12,616 bases of DNA from contig CALIMO010000082.1 in the NCBI GenBank assembly GCA_938045655.1, forward strand, positions 1-12,616. Reading direction: 5' to 3'. Below, one piece after another: positions 2,961-11,268 of the stretch (the first letter of the stretch is position 1; each line of letters opens with the position of its first letter). This DNA is from an uncultured bacterium (GTDB taxonomy: Bacteria; Patescibacteriota; Saccharimonadia; Saccharimonadales; Saccharimonadaceae). Made by a program: the position numbers and the translations under genes. The notes beneath the pieces were generated by a model. It was not told where the DNA came from, did not search any database, and was given only the letters and a program-made list of their open reading frames with translations.

Positions 2961-3004
2961 GCACTTTAAGCTCAAAAATCTTGCAAAAACGTCTATTTTT
3001 ATTA

Positions 3005-3033
3005 TTGACAAGTTAGGGTGTTTTCGTTATAAT
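3005..3033 (+). promoter_or_regulatory. Perfect consensus promoter of a candidate ncRNA
   Basis: TTGACA (3005-3010) and TATAAT (3028-3033) are separated by exactly 17 bp. This is a perfect sigma-70-type promoter. No protein gene starts downstream for about 370 bases, and the next gene has its own -10 box. Confidence 0.85.
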
Positions 3034-3038
3034 TTAAT

Positions 3039-3318
3039 AGCTATCATTTACAATCCAACAAATGATAGCTAAAAACCATCTCCGAAAAACGGAAATAGTT
3101 CCTTAACTAAATACCATTTTGCAAATGGCAGTTTGTAAAATAGTGAAACACCTTTCAGTTCCCCCGATAGGGATAGGTTATTTTCGGTTATGCCTATTAT
3201 GGTATAGCCGCTTTTTATTAGGTGGCAGATTAGACCATATAGTTTGAAAAGCAGAGCGTAACGACAATAGAATGCAAACCGACTCTACTATTATTTTCAG
3301 CCACCGCCGAGTTTTTTT
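3039..3318 (+). ncRNA. Candidate structured ncRNA of unknown family, about 280 nt
   Basis: This stretch between rplJ and the LTA synthase gene has no convincing ORF but dense secondary structure. A 12-bp perfect hairpin (3038-3049 with 3060-3071, 10-nt loop) forms at the very 5' end. CCG/CGG closes an A5 loop near 3082-3092. CCATTT with AAATGG forms near 3111-3129. CGGTTATGCC with GGTATAGCCG forms a 10-bp hairpin with two G-T wobbles near 3185-3210. GGTGGC (3221-3226) pairs with GCCACC (3300-3305), enclosing about 70 nt that includes GTTTG with CAAAC. The transcript would end at T7 (3312-3318), although the hairpin immediately before it is weak. I looked for hallmarks of tmRNA, RNase P RNA, SRP RNA and 6S RNA and did not find them. 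It could be a diverged member of one of these families. Confidence 0.6.
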
Positions 3319-3384
3319 ATAGTAAAATAAAATATTAAAAATCTAAAAACTTGAAGAGCAACTCTCGCTAACTTTTCTGAAAAA

Positions 3385-3402: not shown

Positions 3403-5352
3403 ATGAAAAATTTTAAAAAGCCTGATTTCAAAAAATACTTTAAAGAAATTTTTAAAAAATATTTATCTGAAAAATCACAAAAAAATGTTATAAAATACGT
3501 AAAAATTAGCAAAAAGATCATTCAAAGCAAAGCTACTTTTTTGATATTTTCAACAATTTGTATTTATTTATTGGGATCTTTTCTTGCAAAATATATTTTA
3601 AATCTCCAATTTGGTAGCTGGGAAAAAGCTAACGAATTCCTTTCGAAAAATCCAAAAATTGCCGAGTACAGCCAAATTGTAACAATTTTAGTCAGTTTTT
3701 TATTTGTTGGAATCTTTCGAAACTGGCGAATTTCAATGGGCATTTTGTTTTCACTCGCCACAATCGTGATGTATATCAGTACTGAAAAAATGGCCTCGCG
3801 CAATACGCCGTTTTTGCCTGAAGATTTAGCGATGTCTGGTGAGGCTGGCGGACTAGCCTCGATGATTAATTTAGAACGATTTTTAAATATGCTTTTTACG
3901 ATTGTAGTAATTATAATCATAACCATTATTGTAAATAAAATTTCAAAAAAAATCTGGCATTTTAAATTTTCAAAAAAGCAAAAAATAGCGATCTTTATTC
4001 CGCAAATTGCTTTAATTCTAATTTGTGCGCACTTTTTAAATTTACACACTTTAGAAATTCGAAATCTTAGCGGAAAAGGCACTTTCATCAAAGTTGAGAA
4101 TCTCGAGACTTCTATTGATTTCACTGATCAAGCTTATAACTACCGAACCAATGGCTTTATTTTAGCAACGATCTCAAACCTTCAAACTAAAACTCAAAAA
4201 CAGCCAGAAGGTTATTCGAAAGAAGCCGTACAAAAAATTGTCCAAAAATACCAAAAAATTGCTGAAGAAAATAATAAAAATCGCAAAAAATTAAGTGATG
4301 AAAAAGTAAATGTCGTTTATGTGATGAGCGAGAGTTTTATCGACCCAAAGCTTGGTAAGCATCTTTACGATTACGGAAATAAAGAGCCAATTCCATACAC
4401 ACAAGAAATTAAAAAATCACAGAGTTCTGGCTGGGCTGCTTCAAGCGAATACGGTGGTGGAACAGCTAATGTTGAATTTGAAGCTTTAACAGGATTAAGT
4501 AATTTCTTCCTAAATTCAATCCCCTATACTTCAATCGTACCTGCAAATAAAGACACACCTTCAATCGTGAAAAATTTTAATGAAAACGGCTACAAAACAA
4601 TCGCAATGCATCCGTATAATCGCAATATGTATCGCCGTGAAGTCGTTTATCCAAACCTTGGTTTCCAAGAATATAAGAGTGCTGATGGTTTCAAAAATAA
4701 TTCGAAAATTGATAGCTCGAAATACATTTCAGATGAATCCGCCTTTAATGAAGTTTTAGCTGAACTAAAAAATAGCCAAAAGCCTGAATTCATTCATCTC
4801 GTGACAATGCAAAATCATATGCCCTATGAAGAAAATGCTTATTCAGAACATAATTTTAGCGTTAATGCAAAAAATGGCGCAAATCCAGAAAATGCAAAAA
4901 CTGTTCAAGCTTATCTTGAAGGAATTTCACGTTCAGATAAAGCAATGAAAAATTTTCTTTCTGAAATTGAAAAATTAAACGAAAAAACCATTGTAGTTTT
5001 CTGGGGCGATCACTGGCCAGGAATTTATGGCGAAATGTTCGAAAAAGAATTAAATAAAAATGATATTCGCCGCACACCAATTTTTGTTTATTCAAATTTC
5101 AAAAAAGAAAAACAAGATTTAGGAACTTCAAGCTTAATTTATAATCAGATTTTAGCCCTAAATGCATTCAATTCAAAGCTTTCACCATTTCAATATTTAT
5201 TAAGTGATTTACGAGAAAAATATCCAGCCCTAACTAAACAATTCGTAAAAACAGACGAAAAAAGTGACATTCTAAAAGATTTCGAAATGATTGAATACGA
5301 TATTTTAAGCGGAAATAAATACAGCCTTGGTGATTTTTATAAAATCAAATAA
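3403..5352 (+). CDS. LTA synthase family membrane protein (sulfatase-fold phosphoglycerol transferase)
   Basis: This family transfers glycerol phosphate from phosphatidylglycerol to make polyglycerolphosphate polymers, or related head groups, on the outer face of the membrane. The 649 residues begin with a Lys-rich tail (1-42). About five hydrophobic membrane segments follow, near 44-64, 88-106, 110-127, 161-180 and 194-213, and then a large extracytoplasmic sulfatase domain from about 300. Catalytic positions are visible: E310 in VMSESF, the nucleophile T354 in GGGTANVEFEALTG, H403 in MHPYN, H472 in NHMPY, and D536-H537 in WGDHWPG. These correspond to the metal and active-site residues known for S. 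aureus LtaS. The length is typical. The ATG at 3403 lies just after a TATAAT, with no Shine-Dalgarno. A terminator follows. The exact polymer made cannot be read from the sequence. Confidence 0.93.
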   Translation: MKNFKKPDFKKYFKEIFKKYLSEKSQKNVIKYVKISKKIIQSKATFLIFSTICIYLLGSFLAKYILNLQFGSWEKANEFLSKNPKIAEYSQIVTILVSFLFVGIFRNWRISMGILFSLATIVMYISTEKMASRNTPFLPEDLAMSGEAGGLASMINLERFLNMLFTIVVIIIITIIVNKISKKIWHFKFSKKQKIAIFIPQIALILICAHFLNLHTLEIRNLSGKGTFIKVENLETSIDFTDQAYNYRTNGFILATISNLQTKTQKQPEGYSKEAVQKIVQKYQKIAEENNKNRKKLSDEKVNVVYVMSESFIDPKLGKHLYDYGNKEPIPYTQEIKKSQSSGWAASSEYGGGTANVEFEALTGLSNFFLNSIPYTSIVPANKDTPSIVKNFNENGYKTIAMHPYNRNMYRREVVYPNLGFQEYKSADGFKNNSKIDSSKYISDESAFNEVLAELKNSQKPEFIHLVTMQNHMPYEENAYSEHNFSVNAKNGANPENAKTVQAYLEGISRSDKAMKNFLSEIEKLNEKTIVVFWGDHWPGIYGEMFEKELNKNDIRRTPIFVYSNFKKEKQDLGTSSLIYNQILALNAFNSKLSPFQYLLSDLREKYPALTKQFVKTDEKSDILKDFEMIEYDILSGNKYSLGDFYKIK

Positions 5353-5354
5353 TT

Positions 5355-5381
5355 AAAAACTCCTTCATGAGAGGAGTTTTT
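5355..5381. terminator. Bidirectional terminator between convergent genes
   Basis: AAAAACTCCT and AGGAGTTTTT form a 10-bp stem with a 7-nt loop. A T run follows on both strands. It ends the LTA synthase gene (stop at 5352) and the convergent pilin gene (stop at 5389). Confidence 0.85.
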
Positions 5382-5388
5382 AAATTTT

Positions 5389-5910
5389 TTAAAATCTTAA
5401 GAGTCCTAAATTTGAAGAAGAAAAACAATATAATCCGCCAGTTTCAAGTCTTGTAAGTAAAATGAAATTCGTTGCATTAAAAGGTTTGTCAACGAATCTC
5501 CCGACCTCGCAATCAGCATTTGAGTTATAGTAAATTTCACCAATTTCAAGATTGTCTTGACCAACTCCTGTCCCGCAATTTACCTTACTTCCACACTTTA
5601 AAAAAGTGTAAAATTGCCCTGTACTTGGATCCAAAAACTCACTCTCGTGGGGCCTTAGATAGTTTTTAATAAAATTTTCAAGCTCATTATTAGTATCATA
5701 ATCACTCACGTAATTACCTTTATTGTTCGTTCTCGACTCCTCTAAAATTGCCGCAATTTTCGAAATAACCTGTTTTCTTTGGGTGTCCCTCTGCGAACGC
5801 TGCAATGTTGGTAAAGCCAAAAATACCATTAGAAATATCAGCCCAGCAATCGCAAGAACTAAAACAACCTCAATAATTGTAAAACCACTATTTAGCTTAA
5901 GCTTTTTCAT
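5389..5910 (-). CDS. Type IV pilin-like protein (prepilin)
   Basis: This is a pilus or pseudopilus subunit, processed by prepilin peptidase and assembled from the membrane. The 173 residues start MKKLKLNSG, then the cleavage site G9/F10 and FTIIEVVLVLAIAGLIFLMV, with the conserved Glu five residues after the cut and a hydrophobic helix of about 20 residues. ALPTLQRSQRDTQRKQV continues the helix. The C-terminal domain has a KCGSKVNC pair and two later cysteines (ADC, LYC) that may form disulfides. An upstream in-frame TTG at 5919 would lengthen it, but that codon overlaps the TATAAT box at 5919-5924, so ATG 5910 is the start and the mRNA is leaderless. A decayed paralogue lies at 611-1095. pilB is nearby on the same strand, beyond rplS. 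Whether it is a major or minor pilin cannot be told. Confidence 0.9.
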   Translation of the reverse strand: MKKLKLNSGFTIIEVVLVLAIAGLIFLMVFLALPTLQRSQRDTQRKQVISKIAAILEESRTNNKGNYVSDYDTNNELENFIKNYLRPHESEFLDPSTGQFYTFLKCGSKVNCGTGVGQDNLEIGEIYYNSNADCEVGRFVDKPFNATNFILLTRLETGGLYCFSSSNLGLLRF

Positions 5911-5918
5911 ACTCTTCA

Positions 5919-5946
5919 ATTATAGCACACTCTCTAAAAAAGTCAA
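5919..5946 (-). promoter_or_regulatory. Promoter of the intact pilin gene
   Basis: On the minus strand TTGACT (5941-5946), a 16-bp spacer and TATAAT (5919-5924) with a TGC extension. The -10 ends 8 nt before the ATG at 5910. It starts immediately after the rplS terminator. Confidence 0.75.
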
Positions 5947-5992: not shown

Positions 5993-6439
5993 TTAAGCTT
6001 CTTTGGCTTCTTCAGTTTTTTCTTTTTTAGCTTCAACTTTTTCTTCAGCTTTTGGAGCTTCAGGTAAAGTATTTACAGCTTCACGATCAAAAGCAACTTG
6101 CTTAAGACGAGCACTTTTACCGCTTCGGTCTCTCAAGAATGAAAGGTAATTTCGGCGAACTTTCGAACGGCGAACAATTTCAATCTTTTCAATTAACGGG
6201 CTATGAAGAAGGAAAGATTTCTCAACTCCAACACCGCTAGCAATTTTTCGAACAGTAATTCGAGAGGTATGTGATTTCTTGCGGTCAGTCCGAATAACTA
6301 CACCTTCGAAAATCTGGATTCGCTCTTTATTACCTTCTTTAATTTTTTGGTGAACGCGAACAGTATCGCCGCTTTTAATATCAAGAACGGCTTCTTTTTT
6401 CTGTGCGTCATTAACTTTTTTGATTAACTCAAAACTCAT
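5993..6439 (-). CDS. rplS: 50S ribosomal protein L19
   Basis: L19 sits at the 30S-50S interface. The sequence shows the full family core: KSGDTVRVHQKIKEGNKERIQ, FEGVVIRT, ITVRKIASGVGVEKSFLLHS, PLIEKIEIVRRSKVRRNYLSFLRDRSGKSARLKQ. The core ends near residue 118. About 30 further residues form a Glu/Lys/Ala-rich tail (KAEEKVEAKKEKTEEAKEA) that the usual L19 of about 115 residues lacks. I chose ATG 6439 (MSFELIKKV). A GTG at 6448 is in frame and would add three residues. A GTGAGTGGA stretch upstream is a poor ribosome site. It is a single-gene unit with its own promoter and terminator. Confidence 0.97.
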   Translation of the reverse strand: MSFELIKKVNDAQKKEAVLDIKSGDTVRVHQKIKEGNKERIQIFEGVVIRTDRKKSHTSRITVRKIASGVGVEKSFLLHSPLIEKIEIVRRSKVRRNYLSFLRDRSGKSARLKQVAFDREAVNTLPEAPKAEEKVEAKKEKTEEAKEA

Positions 6440-6482
6440 ATTTTCCACTCACTTTTAAATTTAATATATACAATCAAGATTC

Positions 6483-6511
6483 ATTATATCATACTTTTTA
6501 GTTTTTGTGAA
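6483..6511 (-). promoter_or_regulatory. Promoter of rplS
   Basis: TTCACA (6506-6511), 17 bp, TATAAT (6483-6488) with a TGA extension, on the minus strand. It gives a 5' UTR of about 37 nt. Confidence 0.65.
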
Positions 6512-6514
6512 GAG

Positions 6515-8143
6515 CTAAATTACACGATTTACTTCTTCAATAGTTGTATCACCACGCAGTGCCGAAATCACGCCCTGTTGTAAAAGGGTTAACAAGCCAT
6601 CTTTGCGAGCTTGAGCCTCAATAGCTTCAGCCGAAATTATACCTCTTTCCCCGCGCAAAAATGCTGCAATATTATCGTTCACAACCATCATTTCCATAAC
6701 CACAATTCGCCCCTTATAGCCGAACGGACTATCTTCTGAAGCTACTGGTTTCCAAAGTTTAAAATCTCCAGAAATATCTTGTGGAAGTTTTTCAGCTGGG
6801 ACACCCTCAAGAACGTTTCGAACCCATTTTTTAGTTGCTTCATCTGGGATATATTCTTTAGCATTTTTGTCAAGTTTTCGAACAAGTCGCTGAGCGATCA
6901 AAAGTCGAATTGCGCTCGAGAAAATTGGATTCATACCAATCATATCAATCATACGCGAAAAAGCCGCACTCGTTGAATTGGCATGAAAACTTGAAAGCAC
7001 CAAGTGGCCAGTAATTGAAGCCTGAATTGCAGTTTTCGCCGTGTCATTGTCACGAATCTCACCAACCATTACAACATCTGGATCAAGACGCAAAACAGAA
7101 CGTAATCCGTCAGCAAAACTAGCTCCATGTGTTGTATCAATCGGGATTTGTGAAATCCCACCAATACCATATTCAATTGGATCTTCAAGCGTAATAATCT
7201 TACGATCAAGCGTATTTAAGGCATTAAGCATAGAATAAAGAGTTGTTGATTTACCGGAACCAGTTGGACCAACCATTAAAACCATTCCACGCGGGTGCGA
7301 AATAATTTCATCAATTTCAGCTCGCTCTTTTGGCGCAATTCCAAGTAAATCAAGCTGAAGCATGCTTTCATCAAAGTTAAATAAACGCATCACCGCATCC
7401 ATTCCATACATTGTCGGCACAGTTTCAACACGCAAATTTAAAAGATGCGAAGTTCCATCACGATAAATATCCTTCTGCATATGGCCAGACTGGGAAGTTT
7501 TTGAAGCGCTCGACACTCCCGCTCGCGAAGAAAGTTCACCCATAATAACACGGTATCGATCTCGCCCAAGCTCAGCAACTGGGTGAAGCGCACCATCAAC
7601 ACGCATCCGGATTCGAATCGTCTGGCGTTGATTTTCGATATGAATATCACTCGCGCCGAGCCTATCTGCTTGATCAATCAGATAATCAAAAACCTGATCG
7701 GAAGCAACATTTGCCAAAGTTTGACTAACCTTCTCTAAAGTAGCACTATCACCCTCACCAGCAATTTCAATATCGTCATAAACAACCTTTTTCGGCGGAT
7801 CATAACGCCGCATAATATTCTTCCATGCGCTTTCAGAAACCAAGAAAAGCTCAAGAGTCTTGCCTTCATCTTGATATTTTTTACTCAATTTTTGAATAAC
7901 TGAGCGTGGAGTTAAGCTGGTGATCAAAACTCGCCAAGGCTTATTTTCATCAATATCACCAATTTGAAGTGGCGCCAAAAATGCCCGATACATCTGCTCA
8001 TTTGTGAAAAGATCTCTTGCGAGAGGAAAAATATCTTCGAAATCTCGTGTATCAAGATATGTTAGCCCAAGGATTCTAGCTCGTTGCTCGGTCGCTTCTT
8101 CTTCCTTTTGCCTACGCATTAGCTGAATTTTATTTTCTTCCAT
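6515..8143 (-). CDS. pilB: Type IV pilus assembly ATPase, PilB/GspE family
   Basis: This is the cytoplasmic hexameric ATPase that powers pilus extension. Of 542 residues, 1-130 form a poorly conserved N-terminal domain. The catalytic part follows: SDIHIE at 165-170, Walker A GPTGSGKS at 292-299, the Asp box TLEDPIEY at 318-325, Walker B RLDPDVVMVGEIRD at 352-365 and the His box TGHLVLSSFHAN at 378-389. QRLVRKL at 418-424 is the place where PilB and GspE usually carry a four-cysteine zinc motif, but here it continues DKNAKEY and has no cysteine. The spacing and motifs favour PilB/GspE over the retraction ATPase PilT, which is shorter. ATG 8143 lies 7 nt after TAAAAT, implying a leaderless mRNA. 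pilC and pilM homologues are not visible here. The intact pilin lies on the same strand beyond rplS. Confidence 0.93.
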   Translation of the reverse strand: MEENKIQLMRRQKEEEATEQRARILGLTYLDTRDFEDIFPLARDLFTNEQMYRAFLAPLQIGDIDENKPWRVLITSLTPRSVIQKLSKKYQDEGKTLELFLVSESAWKNIMRRYDPPKKVVYDDIEIAGEGDSATLEKVSQTLANVASDQVFDYLIDQADRLGASDIHIENQRQTIRIRMRVDGALHPVAELGRDRYRVIMGELSSRAGVSSASKTSQSGHMQKDIYRDGTSHLLNLRVETVPTMYGMDAVMRLFNFDESMLQLDLLGIAPKERAEIDEIISHPRGMVLMVGPTGSGKSTTLYSMLNALNTLDRKIITLEDPIEYGIGGISQIPIDTTHGASFADGLRSVLRLDPDVVMVGEIRDNDTAKTAIQASITGHLVLSSFHANSTSAAFSRMIDMIGMNPIFSSAIRLLIAQRLVRKLDKNAKEYIPDEATKKWVRNVLEGVPAEKLPQDISGDFKLWKPVASEDSPFGYKGRIVVMEMMVVNDNIAAFLRGERGIISAEAIEAQARKDGLLTLLQQGVISALRGDTTIEEVNRVI

Positions 8144-8150
8144 TAACTTA

Positions 8151-8179
8151 ATTTTACCACAAGCACTTTATTTTTTCAA
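8151..8179 (-). promoter_or_regulatory. Promoter of pilB
   Basis: TTGAAA (8174-8179), 17 bp, TAAAAT (8151-8156) with a TGG extension, on the minus strand. The -35 box lies inside the spacer of the divergent promoter for the gene at 8239. Confidence 0.7.
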
Positions 8180-8186
8180 TCAAAAA

Positions 8187-8195
8187 TGCTAAAAT
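8187..8195 (+). promoter_or_regulatory. Extended -10 promoter of the small gene at 8239
   Basis: TGCTAAAAT is an extended -10 element with only a poor -35 match. It leaves a UTR of about 37 nt with a small CGCT/AGCG hairpin and the GAGG ribosome site. Confidence 0.5.
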
Positions 8196-8238
8196 ATTCT
8201 CATCGCTTCAAGCGAAATATTTAGAATGAGGTAAAAAA

Positions 8239-8580
8239 ATGCGCCTTAAAGAAACAATCGAGCAAGCTATTTTCGAAAGTTGTCCAGAAGTAGAAAAAGA
8301 GACAAATATCCCGTTAAAAAACCGATGGAACATTTCTCTAAAAATCAAAGACTCTTTTCGCGCAGAAATTGGCATACTTTCAGAATATTCTGCTTTTGTT
8401 CAAGTTGAAGAACTGGAAACTGACAACAAAAACTCATCGTTGGTAATTTTTAAAAAAGTACCTCTCGAAGACGAGTATACTTTCGAAATAATAAATACCG
8501 ATGGAGTTTCACTAGAGCTCACAAAATACACCTATGAAATCCTCGGTCGTACATTATCAAAACTTAAACGCCATAAATAA
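8239..8580 (+). CDS. Hypothetical protein, 113 residues
   Basis: I do not recognise a family. It is a soluble, charged protein without signal peptide or membrane helix and with one cysteine (C15). The middle part (residues 30-87) alternates hydrophobic and charged residues, for example WNISLKIKDSFRAEIGIL and SLVIFKKVPLEDEYTFEII, which suggests a beta-rich fold. The end (residues 92-113) looks helical and basic. ATG 8239 follows a GAGG site about eight bases upstream. It has its own promoter, divergent from pilB, and its own terminator, so it looks like a real single-gene unit. The divergent arrangement with pilB may indicate shared regulation, but no pilus link can be seen in the protein. Confidence 0.8.
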   Translation: MRLKETIEQAIFESCPEVEKETNIPLKNRWNISLKIKDSFRAEIGILSEYSAFVQVEELETDNKNSSLVIFKKVPLEDEYTFEIINTDGVSLELTKYTYEILGRTLSKLKRHK

Positions 8581-8595
8581 AAAGCGTTAAAATTC

Positions 8596-8615
8596 GAGCC
8601 TTTGGGCTCTTTTTA
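8596..8615 (+). terminator. Rho-independent terminator
   Basis: GAGCC and GGCTC pair around a TTTG loop, followed by T5, just after the stop of the 113-residue gene. Confidence 0.85.
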
Positions 8616-8629
8616 TTTTTTAAAAAATC

Positions 8630-8638
8630 TGCTAAAAT
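8630..8638 (+). promoter_or_regulatory. Extended -10 promoter of the RNA methyltransferase gene
   Basis: TGCTAAAAT ends 8 nt before the ATG at 8647. There is no clear -35 box, because the region upstream is the T-rich tail of the preceding terminator. The mRNA would be leaderless. Confidence 0.55.
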
Positions 8639-8646
8639 AGAAGATA

Positions 8647-9204
8647 ATGAAAAATCCTAACTCTTTCGAAAATCAAAACCGTGCACAAAATCGTGAAATT
8701 ATTGTTTTAGCGCACAATATTCGCTCAACTCATAACATTGGCGCAATCTTACGCACTAGTGAAGGCTTTGGAGTTTCAAAAATTATCTTCAGCGGATATT
8801 CACCCTTCCCAATTTTAAAGGACGAAGATTTTCAAAAAACTGGCCGTTTGCCACATATTGCACAAAAAATTAATTCACAAATTCATAAAACCGCGCTTGG
8901 GGCTGAAAAAATTGTTCCAGCTGAAATTTCTAAAGATATTTTTAAAACGATTCAAAATCTAAAAAGTCAAGGTTTCGAAATCTTTGCGCTAGAACAAAGC
9001 AAAAAATCAATTTTCTTAAAAGATTTTGTAGCCGATAAAAATGCCAAAATTGCCCTGCTTTTGGGAGAAGAAGTTGAAGGAATTTCGAAAGAACTGCTCG
9101 ATTTATGCGATAAAACTCTTGAAATTCCAATGTTTGGCCAAAAAGAAAGTTTCAATGTTTCAGTTGCAACCGGAATAGCCCTTTATAAAATTGCTTGCGA
9201 ATAG
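8647..9204 (+). CDS. TrmH/SpoU-family RNA 2'-O-methyltransferase
   Basis: SPOUT-fold enzymes of this family methylate ribose 2'-OH groups of tRNA or rRNA using S-adenosylmethionine. The 185 residues show motif 1 (NIRSTHNIGAILRTSEGFGV, 24-43), motif 2 (LLLGEEVEGIS, 137-147) and motif 3 (IPMFGQKESFNVSVATGIAL, 160-179). Motif 3 forms part of the trefoil knot that binds the cofactor. There is no added N-terminal RNA-binding domain, so it is a minimal SPOUT protein. The substrate cannot be decided; TrmL, TrmH or an rRNA enzyme are all possible. It has its own -10 box and a leaderless start. Its TAG stop ends at 9204, directly abutting the stop of the convergent NUDIX gene with no room for a terminator. 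Confidence 0.92.
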   Translation: MKNPNSFENQNRAQNREIIVLAHNIRSTHNIGAILRTSEGFGVSKIIFSGYSPFPILKDEDFQKTGRLPHIAQKINSQIHKTALGAEKIVPAEISKDIFKTIQNLKSQGFEIFALEQSKKSIFLKDFVADKNAKIALLLGEEVEGISKELLDLCDKTLEIPMFGQKESFNVSVATGIALYKIACE

Positions 9205-9741
9205 TTATTTTTCAATTTTTGCTCGGGCTTTTTCAAGAATTTTTAATGTAACTTCCGGCGAATCTGTAAAATCTTCAGGATGCTCTTCAACCATTTTTCG
9301 AAATTCTTTAAAATTCACTAGCTTAATTTCGGCAACTTCATCGTGCGCAATCGCTAGCTCTTCAAGATTAAAATTCGTTTTTGCAGCAAAAACTTGCATA
9401 AAACGCCGCTTATTTTCTTTAGTATGAATAAAAACCTTTTCAACTTTAATAAAATCTTGAAACCGCAAGTTCAAACCAATTTCTTCAATAGTTTCACGAT
9501 GAATCGCATCCAGATAACTTTCACCAATCTGAACATGACCAGCCGCCGCCGAATTTTGCCATTTTCCAGCAAATGTAGCCTTCGAAAAAGATCGCCGCTG
9601 AATTAAAAAATCACCATCTAAATTAAATAAAATTAACGAAACCGTTCGATAAATTCTCCCCGTAGTTTTATCAAATTCAGCCTTATTAATTTCGTCAATA
9701 ATTTTATCATTTTCATCAACAATCGGTAAAATTTCTTTCAT
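9205..9741 (-). CDS. NUDIX hydrolase
   Basis: NUDIX enzymes hydrolyse a nucleoside diphosphate linked to another moiety, or related pyrophosphates. The 178 residues contain a complete Nudix box at 68-90: G68, E74, R82-E83, E86-E87 and G89, matching GX5EX7REUXEEXGU. Ahead of it, FLIQRRSFSKATFAGKWQNS resembles the subgroup related to isopentenyl-diphosphate isomerase, but that enzyme's catalytic Cys is replaced (SAAAGH), so a hydrolase is likelier. The substrate is unknown. ATG 9741 directly follows the TAG stop of the Mur ligase gene, and a GAGG in the end of that gene can serve as ribosome site, so the two are probably translationally coupled. Confidence 0.92.
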   Translation of the reverse strand: MKEILPIVDENDKIIDEINKAEFDKTTGRIYRTVSLILFNLDGDFLIQRRSFSKATFAGKWQNSAAAGHVQIGESYLDAIHRETIEEIGLNLRFQDFIKVEKVFIHTKENKRRFMQVFAAKTNFNLEELAIAHDEVAEIKLVNFKEFRKMVEEHPEDFTDSPEVTLKILEKARAKIEK

Positions 9742-11049
9742 CTAAACCTCGTCTTCAGCAACTTCTGTGAAACTACTAAAAAAGTCATCTTTGGTTTTTT
9801 TCCATTTTTCGTCCTGACGAACCAACCATTTTTCATCATCTTTATTTAAGAGTAGGATTTTTGTAGCCTCCTCAAGATAAATTTCACCTTGAGAGCCTTT
9901 AAGTAGAACTAAAGCGCCTCGCTCCATAATCTTATGAACAAAAGTTCCCGCATCAATTGCATTTTTTGCTTCATAAACCTGACAGCCTCGCAATCTTGCA
10001 GCCGGAGCAAGAAACTTATTTGCATACTCGCCAACAGTAACCACCCAGGAAAGAGAAATCCCGTCAAGCATTTCACCTATTTTGTGATGTTCGAAAGCAG
10101 AAGCTTCACCAAGCTCATTCATACTTCCAATAACTGCAATCTTCGAAGGTGCATAGAGAGAATAGAGTGTTTGAATCGCGGCTTCTAATGCAGCCGGACT
10201 CGAATTATAAGTATCGTCAATTAAAACAGAGTCTTTAACGCCTTGCATAAAATTCATTCTACCGGGAACTGGTTTCAAACTTGCCAAACCACCTACAATT
10301 TCTTGTGGGTTCAAGCCAAGCTTAATAGAGACCGCTACTGCACTAGTAATTGGCCTGAGAGAATGCTCGCCAAAAACTTTTGCTCGAACATTAATTTCAC
10401 CATATTCTGGAGTTTGAATTTTACCACTAAAGCCATCGAGCAAAGAGAAATTATTAGCTATAAAATTATAGTTAGCTCCACCAACCGAGCTATAAGTTGC
10501 AATATTCGAATTTAGAACATATTTAAAAAAATCTGGCGAAATATCATCTTGATTTAAAATTGCCATTTTAGCAAAACTCGCAGTTTCAAGCTCTTCTTGC
10601 GCAACAGCATCAATACTCCCAAAAAACTCCATATGCTCAGGGGTGACAGAGGTAATTACTGCAATATTTGGAGCAAGATATTTACTAAACTGCTCAATAT
10701 CACCGGGGTGGTCAGTTCCAAGTTCTTGAATGATAATTTGTGGCTCTTGATCACTTGGTGATTTAATTCGCTTTCTTGCAGCTTTAAAAACTCTATGCCA
10801 TTCCCAAAAATTACGAGGATTTCCGGGAAAATTTATTCCCAAAATCGCCAAAGGGGCACTCAAATGTGTATTGTGGTTCCCCTCATGCAATCGTACACGA
10901 TATTTCTGGCTCAAGATAGTTGCAATCGCAAGTTTTGTACTAGTTTTTCCAACAGAACCAGCAACCGTAATCAATTTAATGTCTGGGTGAGTTTCGAAAT
11001 ATTTTCGAACATATTTTTCAAGTTTTCTCTGAATTCCTTTTTTAAACAT
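9742..11049 (-). CDS. Mur ligase family protein, MurF-like, without the N-terminal domain
   Basis: MurF joins D-Ala-D-Ala to the UDP-MurNAc-tripeptide in the cytoplasm. The 435 residues from ATG 11049 show a P-loop (AGSVGKTSTK, about 30-39), HEGNHNTHLSAPLAIL (about 55-70), the E of QELGTDHPGDI, the H of TSVTPEHMEFFGS, GEHSLRPITSAVAV, LKPVPGRM, LIDDTYNSSPAALEAA and GSMNELGE, then LLKGS. These match the central ATPase and C-terminal domains of MurF better than MurE. The P-loop begins only about 30 residues in, whereas MurF normally has about 90 to 100 residues of UDP-binding domain before it, so that domain is missing. An in-frame ATG at 11061 exists, but it overlaps the TATAAT at 11060-11065, so 11049 is preferred. 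A polar tail of about 30 residues ends the protein. It is followed directly by the NUDIX gene. Another Mur-type ligase activity is possible. Confidence 0.85.
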   Translation of the reverse strand: MFKKGIQRKLEKYVRKYFETHPDIKLITVAGSVGKTSTKLAIATILSQKYRVRLHEGNHNTHLSAPLAILGINFPGNPRNFWEWHRVFKAARKRIKSPSDQEPQIIIQELGTDHPGDIEQFSKYLAPNIAVITSVTPEHMEFFGSIDAVAQEELETASFAKMAILNQDDISPDFFKYVLNSNIATYSSVGGANYNFIANNFSLLDGFSGKIQTPEYGEINVRAKVFGEHSLRPITSAVAVSIKLGLNPQEIVGGLASLKPVPGRMNFMQGVKDSVLIDDTYNSSPAALEAAIQTLYSLYAPSKIAVIGSMNELGEASAFEHHKIGEMLDGISLSWVVTVGEYANKFLAPAARLRGCQVYEAKNAIDAGTFVHKIMERGALVLLKGSQGEIYLEEATKILLLNKDDEKWLVRQDEKWKKTKDDFFSSFTEVAEDEV

Positions 11050-11059
11050 AATCTTATTC

Positions 11060-11088
11060 ATTATAATATAAAATCACCACTTTTTCAA
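11060..11088 (-). promoter_or_regulatory. Promoter of the murF-like/NUDIX operon
   Basis: TTGAAA (11083-11088), 17 bp, TATAAT (11060-11065) on the minus strand. Transcription would begin near 11053, so the ATG at 11061 would not be on the mRNA and the ATG at 11049 would be. The -35 box lies inside the terminator-like hairpin at 11071-11098. Confidence 0.7.
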
Positions 11089-11239: not shown

Positions 11240-11268
11240 ATTATAGCAAAACGTTTAAGCTTTGTCAA
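11240..11268 (-). promoter_or_regulatory. Perfect consensus promoter of the candidate small RNA
   Basis: On the minus strand TTGACA (11263-11268), exactly 17 bp, TATAAT (11240-11245), with a TGC extension before the -10 box. It lies directly behind the histidine phosphatase stop codon. Confidence 0.85.

Follow-up and report, generated by a model that had tools for sequence, protein, structure and literature searches.

Trans-encoded bacterial small RNAs (sRNAs) have their own promoter, are 100–250 nt long, fold into a chain of hairpins without an ORF and end in a terminator hairpin followed by a U-run. 6S RNA and Ms1 are RNAs that bind RNA polymerase. RNAs carried as cargo by mobile elements occur amid element genes and at varied positions. 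Here we compare with these systems a region of contig CALIMO010000082.1 (assembly GCA_938045655.1), whose analysed stretch of 12,616 nt is called the window. The L10 protein of the window is 97% identical to those of two genomes that carry related RNA copies (L001 of G001 and L002 of G002) and 82% identical to that of Candidatus Saccharibacteria (L003); judged by this protein, the window is from a relative of Saccharibacteria.

The region lies between the divergent rplJ (minus strand, 2261–2770) and a plus-strand gene for an LTA-synthase-like sulfatase (3403–5352), a likeness whose NCBIfam match is far below the cut-off. On the minus strand at 2851–2938, before rplJ, is a candidate ribosomal L10 leader, scoring 42.7 bits with an Rfam cut-off of 44; of the weak Rfam matches close to the RNA, it alone is meaningful. 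That the region contains a real, independent gene for a structured RNA is, in our assessment, very likely. The full statement, that this is an accessory gene whose RNA acts in trans as a base-pairing sRNA, is drawn from sequence comparison and is held with moderate confidence. The features are as follows.

2978–3033, plus strand: promoter with a conserved AT-rich upstream stretch; −35 TTGACA at 3005–3010, −10 TATAAT at 3028–3033
3038–3216, plus strand: proposed RNA of about 179 nt, its start placed from the position of the −10 box and its end from the terminator
3038–3071, plus strand: P1, perfectly paired 12-bp stem with a 10-nt loop at the 5' end of the RNA
3081–3093, plus strand: P2, UCCG/CGGA hairpin with an A-rich loop, which RNAalifold also recovers from the unfitted MAFFT alignment
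3096–3109, plus strand: P3, small hairpin conserved in sequence, pairing doubtful
3116–3141, plus strand: P4, hairpin of 11–13 bp with the best covariation (double changes at 8 of 13 pairs among the three sequences of the fitted alignment)
3160–3173, plus strand: P5, C-rich hairpin of intermediate pair probability
3185–3216, plus strand: P6 and U-run, intrinsic terminator and 3' end by terminator scan, 9 of 9 pairs kept in three sequences
3219–3318, plus strand: spacer with GGTGGC/GCCACC and T7, outside the RNA, folding no better than chance and absent from relatives

Promoter, extent and fold of the RNA

The textbook TTGACA-N17-TATAAT promoter reported in the initial annotation is borne out by the promoter scan of the window, with a 12/12 consensus match at 3005–3033. 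It is also, as was stated there, stronger than the promoters of the ribosomal protein genes in the window, those of rplJ (10/12, 2960–2932) and the L19-like gene (11/12, 6511–6483). It is not unique in the window, because a second exact TTGACA-N17-TATAAT, with TG ahead of its −10 box, lies on the minus strand at 11268–11240, upstream of a Mur-ligase-like gene. The stretch 2978–3033 agrees with the promoter of the G001 copy at 48 of 56 bases (86%). The G002 copy has TTGACG-N17-TATAAT, one letter off the exact motif, and the stretch 2978–3033 is not alike there. The exact motif is scarce, with six occurrences in 605 kb of G001 (contigs up to C14, seven of them without their tails), one of which precedes the RNA copy. 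In the part of G002 that was covered, 525 of about 700 kb, it occurs 11 times. Among the six in G001, only that of the RNA has no ORF of at least 60 aa beginning within 400 nt; two of the 11 in G002 have none either, one of these two being cut by the end of a piece. From the strength of its promoter we infer that the RNA may be abundant.

About 280 nt of structured RNA without a convincing gene had been proposed to follow the promoter. The window ORF list contains no closed ORF of at least 50 aa over 3005–3318, and the longest stop-to-stop open frames there span 46 codons on the plus strand and 71 on the minus strand. Strong folding was confirmed (3038–3320, z −4.3, equalled by 0 of 200 shuffles); the extent was not. 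The 10-bp stem with two G-U pairs, correctly noted in the initial annotation, is located at 3185–3210 and, with the CTTTTTATTA that follows it, was scored as an intrinsic terminator. Because this stem scans as a terminator and is conserved in both relatives, G001 and G002, the RNA is taken to be about 3038–3216. Cut at the terminator, it folds with a z of −6.0 (−5.97), again equalled by 0 of 200 shuffles; the distal 3218–3320 gives −1.4 (−1.37), equalled by 18 of 200. The long-range GGTGGC/GCCACC pairing before T7 belongs to this distal part, which is not found in G001 or G002, and with that z-score the pairing was dropped as a domain of the RNA. On this sequence evidence, the 3' end is most likely at the terminator hairpin 3185–3216 and not at 3318. 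The RNAs of G001 and G002 fold with z of −8.0 and −5.6, over stretches that include a few flanking bases.

Each of the three RNAs was folded alone. Pair probabilities were high throughout for P1 (window 0.97, G001 0.84, G002 0.98; arms picked by eye), P2 (0.95–0.99), P4 (0.98, 0.95 and 0.89, in the same order) and P6 (0.93–0.99), whereas P5 was intermediate in two RNAs (0.46, 0.57, 0.94) and P3 paired well in that of the window only (0.85, 0.01, 0.22). At least five hairpins had been counted initially; P1, P2, P4 and P6 are supported in three genomes and P5 partly, while P3 is supported mainly in the window. P1 is the perfect 12-bp stem previously placed at the exact 5' end, and begins a few bases past the −10 box in all three copies. 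Its stem letters vary among the copies and its pairs remain standard, with the arms again picked by eye. The P1 loop, 10 nt in the window, is about 110 nt in G001 and contains three further hairpins.

Covarying pairs among homologues had been named beforehand as a test, and they were found. In the fitted alignment A9, which comprises three members, is model-fitted and leans towards its own structure, 11 of 32 pairs are changed on both sides (shuffle mean 4.1, 0 of 500 as high). Eight of these 11 fall in P4. Of 96 cells, 95.8% are paired in this alignment, against 30–38% in slid controls, and RNAalifold run on it finds double changes in 10 of 36 pairs, with a covariation term of −4.09. Covariation is weaker on the plain, unfitted MAFFT alignment. 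There RNAalifold recovers P2 to P6, but just 5 of 33 pairs have double changes, nine are broken or contain a gap in one of the sequences, and the term is −0.21; the main reason is that this alignment puts P4 out of register. As far as a comparison of three copies reaches, it shows hairpin pairing to be kept by selection.

Relatives and known RNA families

Relatives were sought with covariance models, R1 built from the window alone and R2 from the G001 and G002 copies. R2 and R3 both contain these two copies and match them by construction; the real tests are therefore the search of G001 and G002 with R1 and that of the window with R2. Searched against 295 genomes of the family, R1 found G001 (64.5 bits, E 9.5e-15) and G002 (54.2 bits, E 5.9e-12) and no other match at E ≤0.01. 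Reciprocally, R2 recovered the window RNA with 64.2 bits (E 9e-15). R2 matched strongly in two of five genomes of the genus of G001, and in two of 394 of the family. R3 matched in three of 392 genomes in each of the order and class samples, two of the three being G001 and G002. The third, G464 (E 0.008), was rejected as a chance match, an AT-rich partial fit without the conserved letters. The genome sets of the family, order and class searches overlap. With more than 40 genomes, filters were stricter and, among the rows listed, no more than eight candidates per genome were scored, so diverged members may escape these searches.

The relatives came from the covariance model, whereas plain DNA similarity by blastn gave short chance matches only in seven close genomes and nothing at E 0.001 in the 295 family genomes. 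No DNA match was found for the window copy in phages or plasmids, for the G001 copy in plasmids or for the G002 copy in phages. Pattern searches picked out 0, 4, 8 and 7 viral contigs, among which no convincing member was seen: R2 matched none of the first four even at E 1, and the best R3 match over all 19 had an E of 0.06.

The RNA cores of G001 and G002 are 79% identical (111/140), and the window core agrees with them at 58% (78/134) and 56% (76/135), respectively. Across 305 G001–G002 orthologues, median agreement is 70% for whole genes and 46% for third codon positions. Because third codon positions agree at only 46%, unselected sequence of the same age would be hardly recognisable. Selection would account for the core identity, and for G001 and G002 a recent transfer from one lineage to the other may have contributed.

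With cmscan, nothing in the whole window reached the gathering threshold of an Rfam family. When the scans were relaxed, the region and its two homologues showed scattered weak matches that disagree between the copies, the best on the RNA being suhB, in the G002 copy alone (E 0.013; 21.9 bits against a cut-off of 41). Together with the covarying pairs, this upholds the description of the RNA as structured and unclassified. The earlier statement that hallmarks of tmRNA, RNase P RNA, SRP RNA and 6S RNA are missing also stands. RNase P RNA (RF00010) and SRP RNA (RF00169) have no match at the stretch, and RNase P RNA scores above its cut-off elsewhere in all five close genomes scanned (G001, G002, G003, G004 and G017). 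6S RNA (RF00013) is not among the Rfam matches of the window or the copies, and the predicted folds of the three RNAs contain no 6S-type end-to-end stem with a central open bubble. ARAGORN found no tmRNA, with its tRNA-like ends and tag frame, in the window. A known housekeeping RNA was rejected on these Rfam-model and ARAGORN results. An SRP-like tip, suggested by CGGAAGCAG in G001, was also discarded, since the loop is not of the GNRA type and neither the window nor G002 agrees with G001 at that place. SRP-tip patterns found nothing convincing in the G001 and G002 DNA covered.

Beyond the locus itself, small SRP RNA (RF00169) had no match in any of the same five close genomes (control, 13 of 14), and 6S RNA had none in seven of seven, G001 to G007 (control, 6 of 14). 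Loss of the two RNAs from these genomes, gaps in the drafts or divergence beyond the reach of the Rfam models would each account for this. ARAGORN likewise gave no tmRNA in the pieces of G001 (31 of 34 scanned) or G002 (28 of 28 scanned; 525 of about 700 kb).

Genomic setting and rival explanations

Homologues had been expected beside rplJ or upstream of LTA synthase; those found are not syntenic, and no neighbour gene common to all three copies was seen. Similarity to the rplJ leader of the window stops at 2969 for G001 and at 2946 for G002, with different sequence beyond. The end of the G001 rplJ-block similarity at 2969 and the start of the RNA unit at 2978 mark a rearrangement joint in the window. 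In G001 to G005 the LTA-synthase genes are preceded by other sequence, including a divergent greA-like gene, where R1 found no RNA copy. In G001 and G002 the LTA-synthase gene (window 3403–5919 region) lies elsewhere, and the order from the L19-like to the Mur-ligase gene (5993–11061) is kept. The G002 copy lies, together with a 79-aa ORF, in the 583 bp between a 456-aa gene and ftsE; at the corresponding site of G001 there is no RNA, and the two matches are 88 bp apart. The ORF after the RNA is convergent in both G001 and G002. The 14-kb contig of the G001 copy also encodes a Replic_Relax protein, a coupling ATPase of the TrwB type and two serine recombinases; an AbiZ-like protein (DUF6161; L036, 11579–12871; E 7.9e-42) is encoded about 1 kb from the RNA. 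The names ftsE, ftsX, prfB, greA, rplS (L19-like) and sufS are putative assignments made from the sequences.

The RNA could instead regulate the LTA-synthase gene at 3403 in cis, as its leader or attenuator, which would be consistent with the position of that gene on the same strand, 187 nt past the terminator. However, the terminator at 3185–3216 intervenes, and the gene is likely to have its own −10: a TG-extended −10 box was read from the sequence (the promoter scan lists no −35), and a similar one also precedes the gene in G001 and G002. With other sequence in place of the RNA upstream of the gene in G001 to G005, and convergent ORFs instead of a conserved same-strand gene after the RNA in G001 and G002, the leader does not fit G001 and G002 and was set aside as very improbable. 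A riboswitch or a housekeeping RNA does not fit. A scaffold or decoy that binds a protein, for example RNA polymerase as 6S RNA or Ms1 do, in a lineage without detected 6S RNA, is unlikely but the strongest of the rivals. The strong promoter and stiff structure point to it, as do the missing 6S matches in the seven close genomes and the base of P4 in G001 and G002, where GAGUA/GAAUC resembles loop-E (AGUA/GAA; read by eye). Yet the exact AGUA is missing in the window, the predicted folds contain no end-to-end rod with an open central bubble, and three of the five genus genomes, which are drafts, have no match, unexpected for a general polymerase regulator.

The setting of the G001 copy, amid recombinases, a TrwB-like ATPase and Replic_Relax and near the AbiZ-like gene, suggests a functional RNA of a mobile element, be it a regulator, anti-defence or defence-linked, left behind or recruited at chromosomal sites. 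The three unrelated sites, the corresponding sites without RNA, and the G001 and G002 cores, closer to each other than either is to the window, are consistent with this. On the other side, none of the 10 window ORFs scanned against Pfam matched a recombinase or transposase, the two G002 neighbours scanned had no PADLOC or NCBIfam match, and the phage, plasmid and viral-contig searches described above yielded no DNA match and no convincing member. We consider this origin improbable. A bolder version is more doubtful still: the RNA would represent a new class, mobile and accessory, among the structured RNAs of Saccharibacteria, would travel with integrative elements or between them, and would serve in element–host or phage conflict, the variable P1 domain being the specificity part.

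Proposed action and comparison with known systems

In the favoured reading, that of an accessory trans-acting sRNA, the primary sigma factor would transcribe the unit 2978–3216 from the exact promoter and stop at the P6 terminator, as sequence and conservation suggest. The resulting RNA of about 180 nt would fold into the hairpin chain. Its neighbours are not the same in the three genomes, and what comes after it is either a convergent ORF or a gene with separate promotion; action in trans is therefore the most likely. As an abundant regulatory sRNA, it would be protected at both ends by stable hairpins and could contact target RNAs, perhaps with a protein partner, through the loops and linkers left exposed around P2–P5. 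It would be the product of an accessory gene that has moved between sites, in one case onto a mobile element.

Other sRNAs that end in a terminator suggest, by analogy, pairing with mRNAs as the likeliest action. Conserved-target prediction over the 305 orthologue pairs gave a best product of 2.5e-4, and five of 20 shuffles did better. Among the best six antisense matches in each copy's own genome, the longest in G001 has 15 exact bases (E 0.13) and G002 gave only the RNA itself; in the window, the best six are only the arms of P1.

With this locus, Saccharibacteria gain a defined RNA gene with a promoter, ends, a fold, three members and a search model, which makes its transcript and partners directly testable. 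Its change of place between close relatives also offers a case for how RNA genes spread in reduced genomes.

Like the mobile-element cargo RNAs described above, the RNA has one copy amid element genes and occupies varied positions; unlike them, it has no recognised element genes beside the other two copies, within the scans made. With 6S RNA (RF00013) and Ms1 (PMC9130861), it shares a length of about 180 nt, a strong promoter and a high degree of structure; it differs in giving no model hit, in its distribution, which is not genus-wide, and in its predicted shape, which is not a rod with a central bubble. Among the titles listed in searches of open-licence full texts, weak evidence in itself, none was that of a report of an sRNA from Saccharibacteria. 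Compared with trans-encoded bacterial sRNAs, the RNA is set apart by its narrow distribution and the lack of a gathering-level Rfam match, and agrees with them in promoter, length, hairpin chain, 3' terminator hairpin with U-run and absence of an ORF. It is a new RNA family, absent from Rfam, of this known kind.
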